IMG/VR virus record: IMGVR_UViG_3300018481_000068
Location: 1-25,350 of that record
Origin: a virus
Strand: one strand, 5' to 3'
DNA length: 25,350 bases
A program made the position numbers and the translations under genes. This document shows, in pieces, positions 8,342 through 24,112 of the stretch (position 1 is the stretch's first letter; every line of letters starts with the position of its first letter). The notes under the pieces are model-generated. The model saw only the letters and a program-made list of their open reading frames with translations, did not search any database and was not told the DNA's origin.

Positions 8342-8682
8342 GACTCTCGGGCACCAGACTGCCAGCAGAGGCCGGCAAGGCCCTCAGCGACGAGCTTATG
8401 GGCGCGGAGGGCCTGTTTGGCCCCGATGGCCGCGACATCGCGGTGGTCGCCACTATCGATGACCGCGACAGCAACCGCTGGCGGGCGTCCGGGCTCTACC
8501 GGGTGCGCACCAAGGTGCGGCTGCGGGTGGCCACAGGAGTCGGACAGGCGGCGGCACTGGCCGCGCTGATGCAGTTCTTCGTCCGCAACCATGCCGGCAG
8601 GCGCTGGCGGCTGCTCGGGCTGGAGCCTATGGCCGGCAAGGTGACCAAGGCGCGAAGGCGTCGAAAGAGGGAAGAACCATGA
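8329..8682 (+). CDS. Small phage protein of unknown function
   Basis: A 117-residue protein starting at GTG 8329, chosen because AAGAGG lies just upstream and because an earlier in-frame ATG (8134) would add a sequence that is only a shadow of the nuclease gene. ATG 8398 (MGAEGLFGP) is an alternative. The centre (GRDIAVVATIDDRDSNRWRASGLYRVRTKVRLRVA) looks beta-rich, followed by a helix and a very basic C-terminus (KARRRRKREEP). It overlaps the methyltransferase by four bases (ATGA), so they are coupled. I do not recognise the family. Confidence 0.6.
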   Translation: MAAVGLSGTRLPAEAGKALSDELMGAEGLFGPDGRDIAVVATIDDRDSNRWRASGLYRVRTKVRLRVATGVGQAAALAALMQFFVRNHAGRRWRLLGLEPMAGKVTKARRRRKREEP

Positions 8683-9944
8683 AGACCGAGCCTCGCGACC
8701 CCCACACCCTGACCCCGCACCCACGCAACAGCCGTCTGCACTCCAACGAGCAGATCACCGCGCTGGGCCGGGCAATGGTCGAGTTCGGCTTCCACCAGCC
8801 GGTGGTGATCGATGAGGGAGGGACCATCCTTGTCGGCCACGCCCGCACCCTCGCGGCGATCGACATCGGCCTGAAGCAGATCCCGTGTGTTATCGCCAGC
8901 AATTTCAGCGAGGCGCAGAAGCGCGCCCTTGTTATCGCGGACAACCGCCTGCACGAGTTCGGCGCCGGCTGGGATGAAGACATCCTGACCGACGAACTGC
9001 GGGCGCTGATGGCGCAGGGCATCGACGTGAGCCTGACCGGGTTTGACGTGCCGGAGCCCATCGTCAAGCCACGCGCCGATGAGGACGCCGTGCCACCACC
9101 CCCGGATCAGCCCACATGCCGGCTCGGCGACGTCTGGGAGATGAACGGCCACCGGCTGGTCGTCGGGGACAGTCGCGACCCTGCGGTAATAACCCTTGCC
9201 TGCGGTGGGCAAGGGTCATCACGGGAGCGCGATGTACCGTTTATAGGCCTAGACAAAACGCCGAATCTCATGGTCACCGATCCGCCCTACGGTGTCGACT
9301 ACGACCCACAGTGGCGGGTGGACGCGATCCCCGACGGCACCAAGCGCGCCACCGGCAGGGCGATGAACGACCACATCGCCGACTGGCGCGAGGTCTGGGC
9401 GCTGTTCCCCGGAGACGTGGCCTACGTCTGGCACTCGGACCTCTACGCCTCCACCTGCGACGAGAGCCTGCGCGCGGCGGGTTTTTTGCCCTTGACCCAG
9501 ATCATCTGGGCCAAGCCCCGATTCGCGATCGGTCAAGGGAATTACCACTGGCAGCACGAGCCGTGCCTTTACGCTGTCAGGGGCAAACGCAAGGGCAAAT
9601 CAAAAATAGACTGGCAGGGCGGCGTGCAGTCGACGGTGTGGAACGTGGGCCATCGCCGGCTGGCCTACGGGCATGGAAGCCAGAAGCCAGTTGAGGTTAT
9701 GAGGCGTCCTATCCTCAATCACACACGCCCCGGCGACGTGGTGCTCGACCCTTTTCTGGGCACTGGCACTACGATAATTGCCGCCCAGACATGCGCCCGC
9801 AGGTGCGTGGGTGTCGAGTTGAACCCGCGCTACGCAGATGTTATCGTGACGCGCTACCAGTCGTTCACTGGCCAAGGAGCAACACTAGCCTCCACAGGCC
9901 TGTCGTTCGCAGATGTGGCCGAGCAGCGGCTGGTAGCGCCCTGA
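8679..9944 (+). CDS. ParB-domain DNA methyltransferase (DPPY type)
   Basis: A 421-residue fusion. Residues 7-100 are a ParB-like N domain (LTPHPRNSR, VGHARTLAA). The methyltransferase follows: DPPYG (201-205, catalytic motif IV) comes before a FLGTGTT loop near residue 370 that binds S-adenosylmethionine. That order is typical of beta-class N6-adenine or N4-cytosine methylases. The HEPCLYAVRGKRKG segment matches this phage family. The enzyme should methylate phage DNA, for example to avoid host restriction. GAGGGAAG lies before ATG 8679. Residues about 170-191 form an insert containing a palindrome (9192-9216) that is absent from the paralogue at 10779. The target base and site are not deducible. 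Confidence 0.88.
   Translation: MKTEPRDPHTLTPHPRNSRLHSNEQITALGRAMVEFGFHQPVVIDEGGTILVGHARTLAAIDIGLKQIPCVIASNFSEAQKRALVIADNRLHEFGAGWDEDILTDELRALMAQGIDVSLTGFDVPEPIVKPRADEDAVPPPPDQPTCRLGDVWEMNGHRLVVGDSRDPAVITLACGGQGSSRERDVPFIGLDKTPNLMVTDPPYGVDYDPQWRVDAIPDGTKRATGRAMNDHIADWREVWALFPGDVAYVWHSDLYASTCDESLRAAGFLPLTQIIWAKPRFAIGQGNYHWQHEPCLYAVRGKRKGKSKIDWQGGVQSTVWNVGHRRLAYGHGSQKPVEVMRRPILNHTRPGDVVLDPFLGTGTTIIAAQTCARRCVGVELNPRYADVIVTRYQSFTGQGATLASTGLSFADVAEQRLVAP
9192..9216. repeat. Perfect 25-bp hairpin inside the methyltransferase gene
   Basis: Arms ACCCTTGCC (9192-9200) and GGCAAGGGT (9208-9216) are perfectly complementary, with loop TGCGGTG. The same element occurs at 12431-12455 with the loop reversed, so one is the inverse of the other. 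It is in-frame and lies in a segment that the paralogue lacks. Confidence 0.75.
9489..9539. repeat. CCCTTGACC inverted pair flanking a palindrome, inside the methyltransferase gene
   Basis: CCCTTGACC (9489-9497) and GGTCAAGGG (9531-9539) form a perfect 9-bp inverted repeat. Between them CCCAGATCATCTGGG (9496-9510) is a perfect odd-length palindrome, overlapping the left arm. The bases encode conserved methyltransferase residues, so part of the pattern is due to protein constraint. Confidence 0.4.
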
Positions 9945-9948
9945 TTTT

Positions 9949-9975
9949 CACGCCGCGTTCCACCCATGCGGCGTG
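9949..9975 (+). terminator. Hairpin after the methyltransferase gene
   Basis: CACGCCGC (9949-9956) pairs with GCGGCGTG (9968-9975) around an 11-base loop, five bases after the methyltransferase stop. There is no U-tract after it, so it may be an RNA-stability hairpin, not a true terminator. The following gene has its own TATAAG-like -10 (10023-10028). Confidence 0.45.
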
Positions 9976-10039
9976 GGCATCAGGCACTGAGGGGAGACTG
10001 CTCGGGTGGTCTGAGCGGCTCATATAAGGGGTACTTTGA

Positions 10040-10552
10040 ATGAACCTGTTGAAATATCTGTTTGTGGCCACCTTCCTGCCGATGGCAGCGCAGGCCGCGC
10101 CGCTGATCGAGGGCGGCAACACCGTCATCAATGCGGGCGTGCTCTACGAATACGACGAGACGCTCGTCAATCTCGCCGCTGGGTCGCACGTCCTCACCTT
10201 CGGGCTGACGACGATGGCGTCTCCCGGCAACGCGCTGACAACCGAGATCAGCCTCGGGGCCAACGACATCACCTACGACTTCTTCCGCGTTACCGGACCC
10301 AACGGTACCTTCAATGCCACCGAGGTGGTCGAGGGCTCTGGCGGCAACGGTTTCCTCGCCTTTATCGAGGACATCCCGTTCGTTCTCGGCGGACTGTACG
10401 ACCTCGAACTGGGCTTCACTCTCGACAACGCTGCCAATGTGCTGGCGAATGTTCAGGTGAACGCCATCCCGCTGCCGGCGGCTGGCTTCCTGCTGCTCGG
10501 TGCGATCGGTGGCCTCGGCGCACTCGCCCGCCGTCGCTCGCTGACGGCCTGA
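10040..10552 (+). CDS. Secreted protein with VPLPA/PEP-CTERM-type sorting signal
   Basis: A 170-residue protein. Residues 1-20 form a signal peptide (basic-hydrophobic start, AQAA at the probable cleavage site). The middle is beta-rich and Gly/Asn-rich. The C-terminus has IPLPA (143-147), a hydrophobic span, then ARRRS. This is the architecture of VPLPA-CTERM proteins, which exosortase-like enzymes process in Rhodobacterales and relatives. Such proteins are usually surface or matrix proteins of bacteria, so finding one in a phage is unusual. RBS AAGGGG is eight bases before ATG. TATAAG at 10023-10028 and a strong hairpin at 10561-10590 frame it as a separate cassette, a likely moron. No exosortase is visible here; the host would supply it. 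Confidence 0.85.
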   Translation: MNLLKYLFVATFLPMAAQAAPLIEGGNTVINAGVLYEYDETLVNLAAGSHVLTFGLTTMASPGNALTTEISLGANDITYDFFRVTGPNGTFNATEVVEGSGGNGFLAFIEDIPFVLGGLYDLELGFTLDNAANVLANVQVNAIPLPAAGFLLLGAIGGLGALARRRSLTA

Positions 10553-10560
10553 CACCGAGC

Positions 10561-10590
10561 GGAGGGCGGGCGCGTCATCGCCCGCCCTCC
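10561..10590 (+). terminator. Strong GC-rich hairpin after the VPLPA-CTERM gene
   Basis: GGAGGGCGGGCG (10561-10572) pairs perfectly with CGCCCGCCCTCC (10579-10590) over a 6-base loop, eight bases after the stop codon. It is a strong stem, but no U-tract follows, so it may act as a barrier or stabiliser. Confidence 0.6.
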
Positions 10591-10669: not shown

Positions 10670-10798
10670 GTGGCGCGCGCTACAAAACCTTATCCGGGTT
10701 ACCCCCGCGCGTTGCCGGCCCCCAGTTCACCCCCAGAGCAGAGGTTGGCTCCAATGGTGAGTTCGCGAGGGCCGCACAGTGAAAATCGAAATGATTGA
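10670..10798 (+). CDS. Possible small Pro-rich protein (low confidence)
   Basis: An unannotated 42-codon frame starting at GTG 10670, with AAGGAGG upstream at ideal spacing, ending at TGA 10796. The product starts MARATKPYPGYPRALPAPSS and is proline-rich. It overlaps the next gene by 20 bases. Only the good ribosome-binding site supports it. The 190-base gap would otherwise be empty. Confidence 0.28.
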   Translation: MARATKPYPGYPRALPAPSSPPEQRLAPMVSSRGPHSENRND

Positions 10799-11915
10799 GA
10801 TTGAACGTCTTTCTCCACACCCACGCAATTCCAGAACGCATTCACGCGAACAAATTACCGCCATAGGTCGAGCACTACGAGAGTGGGGTTTTACGCAGCC
10901 GGTGGTCGCTGACGAGAACCTCGTCATCCTGATCGGCCATGGCCGCGTCGAAGCCGCCAAGGCGATCGGGCTGAAGACCGCGCCGGTGCTCATCCGCAAG
11001 GGGCTCTCCGACGAGAAGAAGCGCGCGCTGCTGCTCAGCGACAACCGTCTGGCCGAGCTTGGCTCATCGTGGGACGACGGCATCCTGAACGACGAGTTGC
11101 GCTACCTGCTCGACAACGACTTCGACCTGACCCTCACCGCCTTCGACCTCCCGGAGATTCCGCCCGACCGGCTTCCGCCCGCCCCCAAGCCAGACCCTGA
11201 GCCCATCGTCACCGTGCCCGGCGACGTCTGGCACATGGGCGATCACCACCTCGCCTGCGGCAACCCCGGCGCGCAGGCGCAGGTGCTCGACGCGGCACCG
11301 GACCTTCTGGTCACGCAGGCCTTCCAGAGCGACGTGGAGGCGCTGGCAGCGGCGCTGGGGGCGACCGAGGCGCCAGTGGCATACGTCTGGCACACCCCCG
11401 AGATCGGGGCGCTGGTGGCCCGCCTGCTGGAGGCTGCGAGCTTCGAGATACGCTGCCAGATCATCAACGTGCGCGAGCAGACCGGCAGCGGGCGACCCTA
11501 CGCCCTGCAGCACGATCCCTGCTGGTACGCGGTGCGCAAGGGCGCCAAGGCGAGCTTCCATGGCGGGCGCACGCAGTCGACGCTCTGGAAGGCCGGGAAA
11601 ATCCCGGCGTCCGGGGCAGGGCGCTGGCTGCCGATCGAGTGCTGGAAACGGGCGATCATCAACCATACCACCCTCGGGGCCAGCGTGGTGCTCGACCCGC
11701 TCGCCGCCGGCGGCAGCGTCTTCATCGCCGCCCACCAGATCGGGCGCCGGGCAGCCGGGGTGGAAATGGAGCCGTCGATGTGCGATTTTGCAGTGCGGCG
11801 CTGGGAGAACTTCACCGCACGGGAGGCACGACATGGCGGAACAGGGCAAACCTACCGGGAGGTCGCAGAAGAGCGCGGCGCCGGGACCGAAGCCGAGGCC
11901 GAGGCCGAAGCCTGA
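10779..11915 (+). CDS. ParB-methyltransferase paralogue with lost catalytic motifs
   Basis: A 378-residue paralogue of the 8679-9944 protein. The ParB-like N domain is intact (LSPHPRNSR at 11-19, LIGHGRVEAAKAIG at 51-64). Its methyltransferase half keeps the surrounding residues (HDPCWYAVRKG, QSTLWKAG), but motif IV, expected as DPPYG after DLLVT, reads QAFQS (180-184), and the S-adenosylmethionine loop reads LDPLAAGGSVF (305-315) where FxGxG is expected. So it is probably enzymatically dead. The C-terminus is an EAEAEA run that overlaps the small terminase start by 83 bases. GTG 10779 is the start; ATG 10791 is an alternative. It may be a DNA-binding regulator, or serve by sequestering the same sites, but this is inference. 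Confidence 0.82.
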   Translation: MKIEMIEIERLSPHPRNSRTHSREQITAIGRALREWGFTQPVVADENLVILIGHGRVEAAKAIGLKTAPVLIRKGLSDEKKRALLLSDNRLAELGSSWDDGILNDELRYLLDNDFDLTLTAFDLPEIPPDRLPPAPKPDPEPIVTVPGDVWHMGDHHLACGNPGAQAQVLDAAPDLLVTQAFQSDVEALAAALGATEAPVAYVWHTPEIGALVARLLEAASFEIRCQIINVREQTGSGRPYALQHDPCWYAVRKGAKASFHGGRTQSTLWKAGKIPASGAGRWLPIECWKRAIINHTTLGASVVLDPLAAGGSVFIAAHQIGRRAAGVEMEPSMCDFAVRRWENFTAREARHGGTGQTYREVAEERGAGTEAEAEAEA

Positions 11916-12372
11916 GCCGCAGGCGAAGATCCACCAGCTACGTCCGCCGCTGGAGCCCGACCACCCGGAATACAACGACCCACAGCCGGGGCCGGATGGC
12001 GACCCTCGCCCGATGATCCAGAAGCTGGCCGGGATAGGCCTACGCACGCAGGAAATCGCCTACATCGTCAACATCCCTCACACCAAGCTCCTCACCGACT
12101 ACGACCACGACATCAACAGCGGCATCTCGAAGGCCAACATGCGCGTGGCCAACGCGCTCTGGGAGACCGCCTCCGACCGCAAGCACAAGAGCCACGCCAC
12201 CGCGTCGATCTACTGGACCAAGGCGCGCATGGGCTGGGCCGAGACGGCGGCGCGCTCCGCCGACGAGGTGCCAGAGGGTGGCGTCGCCGCCGACGCCAGC
12301 CACCTGACCGACGAGCCGACCAAGGTGCGCTTCGCCGAGACCATGAGCGCCCTGCGCAATGTCCGACGGTGA
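11833..12372 (+). CDS. terS: Terminase small subunit
   Basis: A 179-residue protein. ATG 11833 is preceded by GGGAGG at six bases, and an upstream extension of the frame is a shadow of the preceding gene. Residues 1-60 are Pro/Lys-rich and disordered. Residues 67-92 (GIGLRTQEIAYIVNIPHTKLLTDY region) form a helix-turn-helix, followed by DINSGISKANMRVANALWETAS and an ATASIYWTKARMGW stretch, the pattern of phage small terminases that recognise packaging sites. It overlaps the methyltransferase-like gene by 83 bases and the large terminase by 14 bases. It should bind the packaging site and pass DNA to the large subunit. Confidence 0.75.
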   Translation: MAEQGKPTGRSQKSAAPGPKPRPRPKPEPQAKIHQLRPPLEPDHPEYNDPQPGPDGDPRPMIQKLAGIGLRTQEIAYIVNIPHTKLLTDYDHDINSGISKANMRVANALWETASDRKHKSHATASIYWTKARMGWAETAARSADEVPEGGVAADASHLTDEPTKVRFAETMSALRNVRR

Positions 12373-13999
12373 CCCGGAAAATCCCGACGTCTGGGATGAC
12401 CCGGAAAATCCCGACGAGGAAAACCCCGAGACCCTTGCCCACCGCAGGCAAGGGTATATCCGTCGCGACCCTGTTACTGGCAAGCGACTCCGCCGGCTGA
12501 TCACCCCCAACGAGGCCGCGACCTTCAAACGACGTCCCATGCGTCAGGCGCGGCAGGACGACTTCTACATCGTATGGGACGAGAACGCCGAGCCGCCACC
12601 CGAGGGGGCATCTCTCGCCGCCGTCTACGCCGCAGCAGCCCCGCTGAGCCGGCGGGCGCTGCGCCACCGGCTGATGCCCGGCGCCACCATGGATGAGTTC
12701 GAAGACTGGATCATGACCAGCCTACCGTGGCAGTTCTTCGCCCGTCGGGATCAGCTACCACCACCCGGCGACTGGCAGATATGGCTGATGCAGGCGGGCC
12801 GTGGTGCCGGCAAGACCCGCGCTGGCTCGGAGTGGGCCTTCGAGCAGGCAGTGGCTCACCCCGGCTGGCACGTCGGTGTGCTGAGCCCCACCAACGACGA
12901 CCTCAACCGCGTGACCTTCGATGGACCCTCCGGCCTCATGCGGCTGGTGGAGCGGTTCCCGCAACTGGTGCGCAAGGTGGCCCGGCGCCCGTGGCAGATC
13001 GAGTTCCGCAACAGCAGCCGGATCCAGAGCTTCACCGGCGAGGCCTACGAGCGCCTGCGTGGGCCGCAGCATCATGCCTTCTGGGCCGACGAACTGGCCG
13101 GCATGGCGCGGGTGGCTGATGCCGCCTTCGAGCAGGTGATGTTCGGCCTGCGTCTGGGCCGCAACCCGAAGGTGCTGCTCACCTCGACCCCTCGGGTGAT
13201 CGCGCTCTTCCAGCGGCTGAACGAGCGGTTCGCGCAGGGCGATCCGGTGGTGGCGATGACCCGCGCCTCAACCATGGACAACGCCGCCAACCTGTCGCAA
13301 CTGGCCATCGATGAACTGCGGGCCTCCTACGAGGGCACCCGCCTCGGCGAGCAGGAACTCTACGGCAAGCTCTTGCTCGATGTGCCCGGCGCGCTCTGGC
13401 GGGATGAGTTCTTCCAGCAGGTGTCGATGCCCGATCACCTCGACCGCATCGTGGTGGGCGTCGACCCCTCCGGCGCCGCTGATGCCAAGAGCAAGTCCGA
13501 CGAGATCGGCATCGTGGTGGCTGCCCTCCGCAAGGGGCGCACCAAGGCCGACGACCGCTACTACATCATCGAGGACGCCACCATGATCGGCAGCCCGCAG
13601 GCATGGGGCACGCGCGTCGTCACCGCCTTCGACCAGTGGGAGGCCGACCGCGTGGTGGCAGAGGTTAATTTCGGCGGGGCGATGGTGGAGGCGACCATCA
13701 AGCAGTCCGATGACAGCGTGCCGGTCACGCTGGTGACCGCCAGCCGAGGCAAGGCGATCCGCGCCGAGCCGATATCGGCCCTCTACGAGCAGGGCCGCGT
13801 GTTCCACGTCGGGCGCACCTTCGCCAAGATGGAGGCGCAGTGCTGCCACATGACCTCCTCGGGCTATGTCGGCGACGGCAGCCCCGACCGCCTCGACGCT
13901 ATGGTCTGGGCGATGACCGAATTGACCGGCGGCATGCGCGCGGTGCGCGCGGAGATCGGCAGCGCCGACCGACCGAGCCACTGGCTGCCAAATGTTTAA
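12359..13999 (+). CDS. terL: Terminase large subunit (ATPase and nuclease)
   Basis: A 546-residue packaging motor. The ATPase has Walker A QAGRGAGKT (145-153), Walker B FWADE (241-245) and coupling LTSTPR (274-279). The nuclease has VVGVDPSG (366-372, Asp369), VVAEVNFGG (432-440, Glu435) and RLDAMVWAM (511-519, Asp513). The order and length fit the Terminase_6-type large subunits of Caudoviricetes. Residues 1-60 are an unusual Pro/Glu/Asp-rich N-terminal extension that contains the PENPD repeat and the 25-bp hairpin. The start at ATG 12359 overlaps the small subunit; the ribosome-binding site is weak, so translation is coupled. Confidence 0.92.
   Translation: MSDGDPENPDVWDDPENPDEENPETLAHRRQGYIRRDPVTGKRLRRLITPNEAATFKRRPMRQARQDDFYIVWDENAEPPPEGASLAAVYAAAAPLSRRALRHRLMPGATMDEFEDWIMTSLPWQFFARRDQLPPPGDWQIWLMQAGRGAGKTRAGSEWAFEQAVAHPGWHVGVLSPTNDDLNRVTFDGPSGLMRLVERFPQLVRKVARRPWQIEFRNSSRIQSFTGEAYERLRGPQHHAFWADELAGMARVADAAFEQVMFGLRLGRNPKVLLTSTPRVIALFQRLNERFAQGDPVVAMTRASTMDNAANLSQLAIDELRASYEGTRLGEQELYGKLLLDVPGALWRDEFFQQVSMPDHLDRIVVGVDPSGAADAKSKSDEIGIVVAALRKGRTKADDRYYIIEDATMIGSPQAWGTRVVTAFDQWEADRVVAEVNFGGAMVEATIKQSDDSVPVTLVTASRGKAIRAEPISALYEQGRVFHVGRTFAKMEAQCCHMTSSGYVGDGSPDRLDAMVWAMTELTGGMRAVRAEIGSADRPSHWLPNV
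12374..12413 (+). repeat. Direct repeat CCGGAAAATCCCG in the large terminase start
   Basis: CCGGAAAATCCCG occurs at 12374-12386 and 12401-12413. The same 13-mer occurs twice on the opposite strand at 2964-2976 and 2991-3003 in an unrelated gene, and a close relative, CCGGGAAAATCCCGG, lies at 11593-11607. In both genes it encodes PEN. Confidence 0.6.
12431..12455. repeat. Perfect 25-bp hairpin inside the large terminase gene
   Basis: ACCCTTGCC (12431-12439) and GGCAAGGGT (12447-12455) pair around loop CACCGCA. It is the exact inverse of 9192-9216 and is in-frame in the poorly conserved N-terminal extension. Confidence 0.75.
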
Positions 14000-14117: not shown

Positions 14118-15686
14118 ATGCCCACCGTAGACGACCGACAGGTGCCCGTGGCGCGCGCCGCAGAGCGCGTCCCCATGGGGGAAGCGATCGGCGTCACCGG
14201 GCTGAGGCAGTTCTCTGGCTACGTCCGCGAGGAGTTCCTCGTCCAGCTTGATGGGCTGAAGGGGCGCAACACCTTCGAGGAGATGGCCAAGAACGACAGC
14301 ACCTGCGGGGCCGTCCTCTTCGCCATCCGCAACATGCTGCGCAGCCTTGAATGGCGGGTGGTGCCCTCCGAGGCCAGCGACGCCCGCTCGATCGAGTCCG
14401 CCGAGCTTGTCGAGGGGATGCTGTTCAAGGACATGCAGCAGACGTGGCCCGAGTTCATCGAGGCCTGTTGCAGCCAGTTCACCTACGGCTTCGCGATCCA
14501 CGAGATCCTGTGGAAGAAGCGCAAGGGGCTCAACGCCAGCAAGCCATGGATGTCGAGCGACTTCGATAACGGGCTCTGGGCGCCGCGCGCCTTCGCACCG
14601 CGCAGCCAGAAGACCATCATGCGCTGGATCTTCGACGCCGAGCAGAACCTGATCGGCTTCGAGCAGACGCCCTACACTCAGGGCTCCATCGTGGTGCCCA
14701 TCCGCCGTTGCCTGCACTTCCGCACCACCGCCGAGCTTGACAACCCCGAGGGCGTCTCACTGCTGCGCACCGCCTACCGAAGCTGGTACTGGCTGAAGCG
14801 GCTTCAGGAGATCGAGGGCATCGGCACCGAGCGCGACCTCGCGGGCTACCCCGTCCTGAAGGTGCCCGGCGAGATGCTCGACCCCTCCGCCAACGCCGAC
14901 CCGAGCATGCGCATGGCGCGCGCCGGCTACGAGGAGTTCCTGCGCAAGGTGCGCCGCGACCAGAACGAAGGCGTGCTGCTGCCGTCCGACCGCGATGACA
15001 AGGGCAATCCCTACTACGAGTTCAGCCTCGTCTCCTCCGGCGGCACCCGCGCGCTCCGCATCGATGAGTCGATCAGCCGCTACCAGAAGGACATCGCCCG
15101 CAGCGTGCTCGCCGACTTCATCTTCCTTGGCGCCGACGGCGGTGGCAGCCTCGCGCTGGGCCGCTCCAAAATTGCATTCTTCATCGAGGCGCTGAAGGCC
15201 TATGCGCAGGCGATCACTCACCAGATCAACGAGGTGGCGATCCAGCAGATCTGGCGTCTGAACGGCTTCGACATGGAGCTTATGCCGCGCCTTGAGCCGG
15301 GCGAGATCGAGAAGGAAGACCTCGCGGCACTGGGCACCTACCTCGGCGCGCTCAACACGGCAGGCTTCGACCTCGCCACCGACACCGAGCTTGAGAACCA
15401 CCTCCGCCGCGCCGCCGACCTCCCCGACGCGCCCGACCGCACCCAAGACGACGACTTCGTGGAGATGCCGTCCGGGCGCGCCGTGCGCACCACCGTCCCC
15501 GGCTTCGACGCCGACGGCAACCCGATCCCGCCGGATGAGATGGTCGGGGGTGAACCCGGACCCGATGGCAAGCCAACACCCAAGAAGGGCGAGGACGAAG
15601 ACGAGTCCGAGGCACTGGGCAAGGCGCTGCGCGAGCGGTTCGGTCTCGACCTCGACCGGGTGATAAGGGCGATCGAACATGGCTGA
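14118..15686 (+). CDS. Portal protein (DUF935 / Mu gp29-like)
   Basis: A 522-residue protein. It forms the ring at the capsid vertex through which DNA enters. Evidence is order (directly after the large terminase) and family-like segments: FEEMAKNDSTCGAVLFAIRNMLRSLEWRV, the GTERDLAGYPVLKVPG turn, and DFIFLGADGGGSLALGRSK, typical of DUF935 portals. The C-terminal tail (residues 440-500) is acidic, Asp/Pro-rich, like other portal tails. The end overlaps the next gene by 8 bases. The start has a usable AGAGG. Portal assignment is firm; the exact subfamily is inferred. Confidence 0.85.
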   Translation: MPTVDDRQVPVARAAERVPMGEAIGVTGLRQFSGYVREEFLVQLDGLKGRNTFEEMAKNDSTCGAVLFAIRNMLRSLEWRVVPSEASDARSIESAELVEGMLFKDMQQTWPEFIEACCSQFTYGFAIHEILWKKRKGLNASKPWMSSDFDNGLWAPRAFAPRSQKTIMRWIFDAEQNLIGFEQTPYTQGSIVVPIRRCLHFRTTAELDNPEGVSLLRTAYRSWYWLKRLQEIEGIGTERDLAGYPVLKVPGEMLDPSANADPSMRMARAGYEEFLRKVRRDQNEGVLLPSDRDDKGNPYYEFSLVSSGGTRALRIDESISRYQKDIARSVLADFIFLGADGGGSLALGRSKIAFFIEALKAYAQAITHQINEVAIQQIWRLNGFDMELMPRLEPGEIEKEDLAALGTYLGALNTAGFDLATDTELENHLRRAADLPDAPDRTQDDDFVEMPSGRAVRTTVPGFDADGNPIPPDEMVGGEPGPDGKPTPKKGEDEDESEALGKALRERFGLDLDRVIRAIEHG

Positions 15687-19280: not shown

Positions 19281-19706
19281 ATGGCAGACAACTACAGCAC
19301 CGTGGCGTTCACGGTCGGTGGCGTCACCGTCACCGCTTCGAGAGCCAAGAGCGGCAGTGCCGCCGATCGTCTGGAGGCGGTCCTGAAGTGGATCGGCGAG
19401 CAGATCGAGGCCGGCCTGCCGGGCATCGACAACACCCTGCCCGGCTCACAGCCCCGTCCCGATCAGGGCCTTCCGGGCGCGCAGCCGGGGCCGGATAACA
19501 CCCTACCCGGCGACCAGCCGAAGCCAGACCAAGGCCTTCCCGGTTCACAGCCCCGTCCCGATCAGGGCCTTCCGGGCGCGCAGCCGGGCGTTGACAACGA
19601 GCTACCGCTGGACGAACTGGCTGATTTCCTGAACAAGCACGCCAAGGAGATCGCCGCCGCGATCCTCAAGGACACCGCCTGCGATCCGGCGCAGCCGAAG
19701 AAGTAA
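19281..19706 (+). CDS. Protein with five 11-residue Pro/Gly/Asp repeats
   Basis: A 141-residue protein with AAGGA before ATG 19281. A beta-like N-terminus (TVAFTVGGVTVTASR) and a helical stretch (LEAVLKWIGEQIE) lead into five tandem units of GxQPxPDxxLP (residues 55-109), then a helical C-terminus (DELADFLNKHAKEIAAAIL). The DNA has a 44-bp exact repeat. The repeats could form an extended, hydrophilic linker or a sugar- or calcium-binding stalk. I recognise no family. It lies in the virion operon before the head-morphogenesis gene. Confidence 0.7.
   Translation: MADNYSTVAFTVGGVTVTASRAKSGSAADRLEAVLKWIGEQIEAGLPGIDNTLPGSQPRPDQGLPGAQPGPDNTLPGDQPKPDQGLPGSQPRPDQGLPGAQPGVDNELPLDELADFLNKHAKEIAAAILKDTACDPAQPKK
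19443..19607 (+). repeat. Tandem 33-bp coding repeat, five units
   Basis: Five 33-base units encode 11 residues each. A 44-bp stretch at 19446-19489 recurs exactly at 19545-19588, 99 bases (three units) downstream. The conserved codons and exact copy point to recent unequal exchange. Confidence 0.8.
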
Positions 19707-22457: not shown

Positions 22458-23282
22458 ATGCTCTGGCTCCCCACCGCAGGGGGTCCAAGGGCCATCACCA
22501 ACCTCGTGGCGGCGGCGACGCTCACGCCGGGCACACCGCTGCCCGGCAGCGCAACGACAGACGTTCCCGGAGCGGTGACCGAAGTGATCACCGCTGTCCA
22601 GAACACGCAGCACTCGTGGGGCATCGCCATCAACATCGGCGCGACCGGATTCGGCGCAGTAGACTCACGGGCGGTCGTGGACATCCTCGTCGGTGGGGCC
22701 ACCGACGACCTGTTGATCCCCCGCCTGATCTGCGGCCATACCTCGCCGGGCGCTGGCGGCATGGGGTTCGTCTATTTCTTCCCGCTGCACATCCCGAGGG
22801 GTGTCAGGATCGCGGCGCAGTTGACCGACGCGCGCCCCGATACCACCGCGCGGATCGCCGTCACGCTCTTCGGCGGCAGCCCGCCGCCATGGCGGGTCGG
22901 GCGCAAGGTGGTCGCCTATGGCACGGGGCTCTACGGGCAGGCCCTCACCGTCTCCTCCAGCGGAGCGGCGGCGGGCGTCACCGAACTGGCTGCCGCCACC
23001 GCCGAGGATCTCATCGCCTTCATGCCGGGGTTCCAGACGGGGGCCACCGTCTTCACGGCGCTGATGTTCAACGTCGGCATAGGCGTCGGTGCCGCACCCG
23101 AGGAGCGCATCGGGACGTGGTGGTGGGGGCATGAGGTGACCAACAGGCTCATTGTCGGCCCGCACCTGCCGTGGCCTGTCTTCCGCGACGTGCCTGCGGG
23201 TTCACGCCTGACGATGATGGCAAGCTCAAGCGGGGCGGTGGTGCTCCCCTACACGGGGCTGATCTATGGGGTGGTGCCATAA
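22458..23282 (+). CDS. Virion surface protein, paralogue A
   Basis: A 274-residue protein starting at ATG 22458, directly after the previous stop. It is beta-rich with Gly, Thr and Val, and has FPLHIPRGVR (108-117), PPWRVGRKV (143-151), AFMPGF, EERIGTW and FRDVPAGSRL, all shared with the next gene. The layout fits a virion surface or tail-tip protein. I recognise no family beyond the pair. Ends TAATG, overlapping its paralogue. Confidence 0.65.
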   Translation: MLWLPTAGGPRAITNLVAAATLTPGTPLPGSATTDVPGAVTEVITAVQNTQHSWGIAINIGATGFGAVDSRAVVDILVGGATDDLLIPRLICGHTSPGAGGMGFVYFFPLHIPRGVRIAAQLTDARPDTTARIAVTLFGGSPPPWRVGRKVVAYGTGLYGQALTVSSSGAAAGVTELAAATAEDLIAFMPGFQTGATVFTALMFNVGIGVGAAPEERIGTWWWGHEVTNRLIVGPHLPWPVFRDVPAGSRLTMMASSSGAVVLPYTGLIYGVVP

Positions 23283-24112
23283 TGCTGCTACATCCGGGCA
23301 CGGGCGGCGTGAAGAAGATCACCAACGCTGGGCTGGTCGGCACGCTGTTTCCGGGCACCCCACTGACTCCGGGCATCACCACCTTTCCTGCCCCGACGGA
23401 GGTGATCTCGGCAGCCCAGAACGTTCAGGATTCTTGGGGCATCGGGATCTGGATCTACGGCACGGGGCTGAATGGCTTCGCCACCGAGGCTGCCGCCAAC
23501 ATCTACATCGGCGGCGTGACCGACAGCCTGCTGATCTCTTCACTGCTCTGCGGCTACGCCCTCGAACTCCCGCAGGGTCAGGGATGGCACTGGCTGTTCC
23601 CGCTGCACATCCCGAGGGGCGTCAGGCTCGCGGCATCGATCTCGTCCATCCTGAGCCCGGTCAGCACCAAGGCTGGCATCGTGATCGAACTCTACGGCGG
23701 CTGCCTGCCACCGTGGCGGGTCGGGCGCAAGGTGACGACCTACGGCGTCAAGGTCAACAACAACAGGGGTCAGGCGGTGACGCCCGGAACGAGCGGGGCG
23801 ATCTCGATCCAGCAGATCGTGGCGGCGACCACCGAGGCGCACTTCGCCTTCATGCCCGGCTTTAACGCTGGGGGCGACACCACCCTCGCCCAAGCATTTG
23901 TGAACGTAACCATCGGGATCGGCGCGTCGCAAGAGGAGCGGATCGGGACGTGGGCGATCGTCAAGCCGTCGACCGAGGACATGGGCGGACCGTTCCCCAT
24001 GCTGCCCGCCTTCCGCGACGTGCCTGCCGGGACGCGGCTGAGCCTGCTCCTGTCGCACTCCAATGCGTCGAACGACACCAGCTACAGCGGCCACATCTAC
24101 GCCGTCAGTTAA
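23282..24112 (+). CDS. Virion surface protein, paralogue B
   Basis: A 276-residue protein from ATG 23282. An upstream in-frame start at 23171 is rejected because it lies inside the previous gene and the TAATG overlap fits. It shares FPLHIPRGVR (106-115), PPWRVGRKV (143-151), AFMPGF, EERIGTW and FRDVPAGTRL with its neighbour, and the same overall length. The copies are now diverged elsewhere, so the duplication is not very recent. Confidence 0.7.
   Translation: MLLHPGTGGVKKITNAGLVGTLFPGTPLTPGITTFPAPTEVISAAQNVQDSWGIGIWIYGTGLNGFATEAAANIYIGGVTDSLLISSLLCGYALELPQGQGWHWLFPLHIPRGVRLAASISSILSPVSTKAGIVIELYGGCLPPWRVGRKVTTYGVKVNNNRGQAVTPGTSGAISIQQIVAATTEAHFAFMPGFNAGGDTTLAQAFVNVTIGIGASQEERIGTWAIVKPSTEDMGGPFPMLPAFRDVPAGTRLSLLLSHSNASNDTSYSGHIYAVS

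Follow-up and report, generated by a model that had tools for sequence, protein, structure and literature searches.

A gene carried by a phage (10040–10552) encodes a protein that ends in a bacterial exosortase-type sorting signal, and it is the only gene of its kind in the window, the 25,350-nucleotide stretch of viral DNA analyzed here (coordinates are those of the window; the gene, its parts, the hairpins, and the methyltransferase, terminase, and portal genes described below are on the plus strand). The gene is probably a phage moron whose product is a single-protein substrate for XrtD, the VPLPA-specific exosortase (profile TIGR04152), of the host, and its likeliest use would be in changing or shielding the surface or exopolysaccharide (EPS) of the host. 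The sorting signal, the phage context, an association of such tails with XrtD in the likely host order, recurrence in phages, and signs that some related phage-borne genes are under purifying selection are the observations from which we infer processing, localization, and function.

The open reading frame at 10040–10552 is real and encodes 170 amino acids, with an ATG start and a ribosome-binding site (AAGGGG, 10026–10031) located 8 nt 5' of it. Residues 1–20 (10040–10099; MNLLKYLFVATFLPMAAQA, followed by A) resemble a Sec signal peptide in which AQA precedes the cleavage site, as judged by eye from the n-, h-, and c-regions and by hydropathy. The tail IPLPAAGFLLLGAIGGLGALARRR (residues 143–166; 10466–10537) consists of IPLPA, a hydrophobic helix, and RRR, and aligns to positions 1–24 of the TIGR03370 VPLPA-CTERM profile with a score of 32.8 bits (E 5e-8), above the curated cut-off of 25.35 bits. 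The sequence-only reading had called an exosortase-type tail, and the profile places it in the XrtD class. No other ORF in the window has a tail of this type; shuffled ORF proteins yield 0.003 per window, and the DNA pattern of the tail has one match in the window and none in 100 shuffles.

Between signal peptide and tail, the body (residues 21–142; 10100–10465) has no convincing homolog. It has no Cys, no Lys, and one Arg in 123 residues, and is composed of 9.8% Thr, 9.8% Asn, and 3.3% Ser. PEP-CTERM proteins have fewer basic residues, low Cys, and raised Thr, Ser, and Asn (PMC1569441), and the body is close to them in composition except that Ser is not raised. Searches with the full-length protein found no homolog in viral contigs, genome contigs, phage records, or plasmids, and no PHROGs or Pfam family scored above cut-off. 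The protein has neither a lipobox, as its body is free of Cys, nor an above-cut-off match to a known family of exclusion proteins. A single-sequence AlphaFold model has a pLDDT of 34, too low to be of use in judging the beta-rich body proposed in the sequence-only reading.

Hairpins flank the gene as had been read from the sequence, one upstream (9940–9984; folding versus shuffles, z −2.66) and one downstream with a perfect 12-bp stem (10561–10590; z −4.24). Neither has a T-run, and a role as terminator is only putative. The same reading had also placed a −10-like box ahead of the gene. This promoter candidate was rejected: TATAAG (10023–10028) overlaps the ribosome-binding site, and site scoring of the region around the gene found no sigma-70-type promoter.

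The gene lies approximately 10 kb inside the contig, and there are phage genes at both contig ends. Immediate neighbors are a ParB-N/N6_N4 DNA methyltransferase gene (8679–9944) and a ParB-N/methyltransferase-like paralog (10779–11915) that is 39% identical to the upstream one. Primase and helicase genes are located to the left, and to the right are genes for a terminase large subunit (12359–13999), a Mu-type portal protein (14118–15686), an endolysin-type peptidase, a Mu F-type head protein, and an RNA-ligase-like protein. Phage genes on both flanks bear out the claim that the gene is phage-borne. The gene matches its neighbors in G+C and in third-position G+C, and there are no spike or tail genes beside it. 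The second paralog is probably inactive as a methyltransferase with its ParB-like domain retained, because DPPY is absent and DPLAAGGS aligns to DPFLGTGT of the first. Elsewhere in the window, two adjoining ORFs of no known family (22458–23282, 274 aa; 23171–24112, 313 aa) look like tandem paralogs, and a 141-aa ORF (19281–19706) contains LPGSQPRPDQGLPGAQPGPDN-type repeats.

Relatives of the phage lack the gene. None of 57 portal-related viral loci has such a tail, and a phage from Manatee Spring, whose genes run in the order methyltransferase, DNA-binding protein, terminase, and portal, does not have it either. The gene is thus an addition to an otherwise ordinary packaging region, and in this respect, being absent from the same module in relatives, it fits the pattern of a moron.

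VPLPA tails recur in other viral contigs. A strict tail pattern matched 14 stretches in IMG/VR, of which six are true C-terminal tails and five of these six records pass TIGR03370. The sequence-only reading had proposed a search of other phages and prophages for VPLPA-CTERM or PEP-CTERM genes, and it returned these six further VPLPA loci and 67 PEP-CTERM-type stretches. Several of the VPLPA loci have genes for lysis, tail, or virion proteins on one or both sides. In one record (G001), the gene is between an endolysin gene and tail genes, and in a second (G005), from the same isolate by contig name, it adjoins tail genes, and an Rz-like spanin gene lies at a greater distance. In a third (G002), it lies amid virion genes on a contig with a major head protein gene and has an in-frame TAG. 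The VPLPA-CTERM gene with a TAG amid virion genes (L022, 6821–7329, plus strand) has a good signal peptide ahead of the in-frame stop, which could reflect a decayed gene, a sequence variant, or recoding. Two prophage records (L021 and L025), assigned to a single isolate from their contig names, have VPLPA genes that are alike in signal peptide and tail and differ in body, which hints at body swapping. The VPLPA gene of L032 lies past an apparent host gatB gene and was left out of the phage-borne count. No match came from searching cultured phages with the short tails, for which, being brief and hydrophobic, tblastn has little power.

In two prophages of sequenced Rhodobacteraceae isolates, Phaeobacter sp. 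22II1-1F12B (G004) and Albibacillus kandeliae J95 (G006), the VPLPA gene is convergent with and directly adjoins a gene with a PKD-like domain. The two neighbors are homologous (31% over 662 aa). A homolog in an uncultured Roseobacter is two genes downstream of a gene for an RCAP_Rcc01079-family spike base protein, and adjoins genes for an EPS-type glycosyltransferase and an XrtA/PEP-CTERM-type amidotransferase. The spike base gene and the homolog (L029, 4403–7923; G010 contig 8) are on the same contig as xrtD. Given the spike base and EPS genes in the neighborhood of the homolog, the partner gene in the two prophages is plausibly a polysaccharide-binding spike. The host of the second prophage, A. 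kandeliae J95, has an XrtD scoring 680 bits.

PEP-CTERM tails are far more common than VPLPA tails in viral contigs, with 67 stretches found by a strict pattern; when a simple rule of length and charge is applied, 68 of the 69 matches qualify as C-terminal tails. Their placement in phages rests on the records checked, a subset of the 67 stretches. In 15 of 15 records examined, the PEP-CTERM gene is at least ∼5 kb from either end and in most far more. One lies close to a tail-tube gene, 54 kb from the start of a contig of 113 kb. Neighbors of others encode resolvases like RuvC and RusA, a DNA primase, a protein like RecT, and a protein that weakly matches terminase. Five loci (L133, L144, L165, L190, and L186) come from a single, syntenic lineage of phages and have their PEP-CTERM genes in a shared region. 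Values of dN/dS are 0.16–0.18 among L133, L144, and L190, and 0.17 for L162 versus L174, implying that these phage-borne PEP-CTERM genes are maintained as functional proteins. Two members of the lineage (L133 and L165; records G733 and G734) each have two tandem PEP-CTERM genes.

The gene could instead be a passenger, that is, a host VPLPA-CTERM gene acquired by chance that does nothing for the phage and is bound for loss. There is ample source material, with 13–19 VPLPA-CTERM genes per genome in three Rhodobacterales genomes, and both the absence of the gene from phage relatives and the in-frame stop in the copy of G002 are as expected of a passenger. But such genes recur in unrelated phages, the phage-borne PEP-CTERM genes share a region in one lineage and show the low dN/dS noted above, and the copy in the window is intact, has a ribosome-binding site, and resembles its neighbors in codon composition. 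We consider a passenger unlikely.

The distribution of exosortases is consistent with a host enzyme acting on the tail. Relatives of the terminase are in Dinoroseobacter and Roseobacter phages, plus others at an equal level, and the closest portal protein (47% identical) among 337 genomes of the class searched is in genome G032, which is also in our Rhodobacterales sample. The protein matches 62 of 391 Rhodobacterales genomes, mainly via its tail. XrtD is above cut-off in 55 of these 62 genomes versus 54 of the 329 others (Fisher test), a difference that is expected if the tail is an XrtD signal, making it likely that the host of the phage carries XrtD. The sequence-only reading would have foundered had exosortase been absent from every plausible host; in the order to which the host probably belongs, XrtD is common, present in 109 and absent from 282 of the 391 sampled genomes. 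No exosortase is encoded on the 25,350-base record of the window or on any of 21 other viral records with such tails (22 of 22). As several matches adjoin xrtD, we considered whether the protein is a dedicated substrate encoded beside this gene, but rejected it since similarity is mostly in the tail and the bodies of the neighbors differ. A draft genome of Phaeobacter sp. 22II1-1F12B (G008) has 19 VPLPA-CTERM genes and no exosortase was found in it, which may reflect an assembly gap or processing by another enzyme.

The same association bears on whether the protein only resembles an exosortase substrate and is a membrane-anchored phage protein, such as an unprocessed lysis or inner-membrane exclusion protein. 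A C-terminal helix and Arg cluster suffice for anchoring in the inner membrane and lysis genes are near some of the prophage cases, but the helix is accompanied by a PLPA motif, the profile match is above cut-off, and the tail type tracks XrtD across genomes, all of which make an anchored protein improbable. Least probable of all is an assembly chimera in which host DNA was wrongly joined to phage DNA, which the sequence-only reading had named as grounds for abandoning it: the contig is from a metagenome, searches turned up no near relative sharing the junctions, and the genes on either side are paralogs. But phage genes alike in kind and strand lie on both flanks, so that two errors would be required, and the ∼64% DNA identity of the paralogs is too low for assembly to be misled. 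Composition is also even throughout the region, and similar genes are found within other phages, among them prophages in sequenced isolates.

In favor of a substrate for host XrtD, we counted the tail score, the phage flanks, recurrence, the XrtD association, the lack of a phage-encoded exosortase, the closest portal being in a genome of the Rhodobacterales sample, the shared region and dN/dS of 0.16–0.18 in the PEP-CTERM cases, the spike-type neighbors, and the XrtD of A. kandeliae. Against it, we counted a body without a homolog, the genomes lacking XrtD (282 of 391), portal relatives without the gene, the TAG in G002, the draft genome of a prophage host (G008) in which no exosortase was found, and the position of the gene in the window away from spike or tail genes.

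As a substrate of host XrtD, the protein would be exported by Sec and its signal peptide removed. The C-terminal helix and Arg cluster would retain it in the inner membrane with IPLPA at the periplasmic face, where host XrtD is predicted to cleave at IPLPA and hand the body on, so that in infected or lysogenic cells it reaches the surface or the EPS layer. The phage would supply the substrate only, and the enzyme would be that of the host. Once displayed, the body may mask a receptor, exclude superinfection, or change adhesion. Receptor masking or superinfection exclusion is our leading guess, though unproven; masking of a receptor or EPS is favored by the spike-type neighbors in two prophages and by the role in exclusion of surface lipoproteins like Ltp. 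The position of the gene in the window offers no clue in this regard.

Llp of phage T5 is a phage-encoded surface lipoprotein that acts in superinfection exclusion. Ltp of phage TP-J34 is another (PMC3952083), and like both, the protein described here is small, secreted, and part of the phage cargo, and would be expected on the surface of the host. They differ in that Ltp and Llp have an N-terminal lipid anchor, whereas this protein has a C-terminal exosortase tail and its role in exclusion is only putative. The protein is also like the VPLPA-CTERM (TIGR03370)/XrtD (TIGR04152) proteins, found mainly in Rhodobacterales, which have a signal peptide (a likely one in the protein here), a Cys-poor body low in basic residues, PLPA, a helix, and an Arg cluster, and whose bodies are diverse, as they are among the phage-borne cases. 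Unlike cellular VPLPA-CTERM/XrtD systems, the gene is phage-encoded, in single copy, and on a record without an exosortase. The protein also resembles those of the PEP-CTERM/EpsH system in its tripartite C-terminus and proposed route to the surface or EPS, but with the motif PLPA rather than PEP (Haft et al. 2006, PMC1569441). In the model for PEP-CTERM proteins, export and removal of the signal peptide are followed by anchoring of the helix, recognition of the motif by exosortase at the periplasmic face, and sorting to the surface or EPS (PMC1569441).

Phages and viruses are nowhere mentioned by Haft et al. (2006; PMC1569441). We found no literature linking VPLPA-CTERM with phage, in a search that most subscription journals lay outside of. 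Likewise, by title and abstract, no paper concerns phage-borne substrates of PEP-CTERM exosortases, with the exception of a line on TIGR03118 proteins with an exosortase-interaction domain (n = 13) in Yellowstone virus contigs (PMC11003980). In the passages on them, the proteins receive a brief mention as one of several sets of cellular genes gained by horizontal transfer, and neither sorting nor the host enzyme is analyzed.

More tentatively than for this one gene, we suggest that many phage lineages may carry exosortase substrates with differing bodies, displayed via host XrtD or PEP-CTERM exosortase to remodel the surface or EPS, and in some prophages paired with an adjoining polysaccharide-binding spike. 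To our knowledge, the phage proteins known to alter the host surface are mainly lipoproteins, membrane proteins, and glycan-modifying enzymes, and exosortase function is still poorly known. If the reading of the gene as an XrtD substrate is true, phages would have a new means of rewriting the surfaces of environmental biofilm bacteria and would be tied to exopolysaccharide assembly. Phage proteins would also become test substrates for exosortases, and their tails a clue to host, as the type of tail should match the exosortase of the host.
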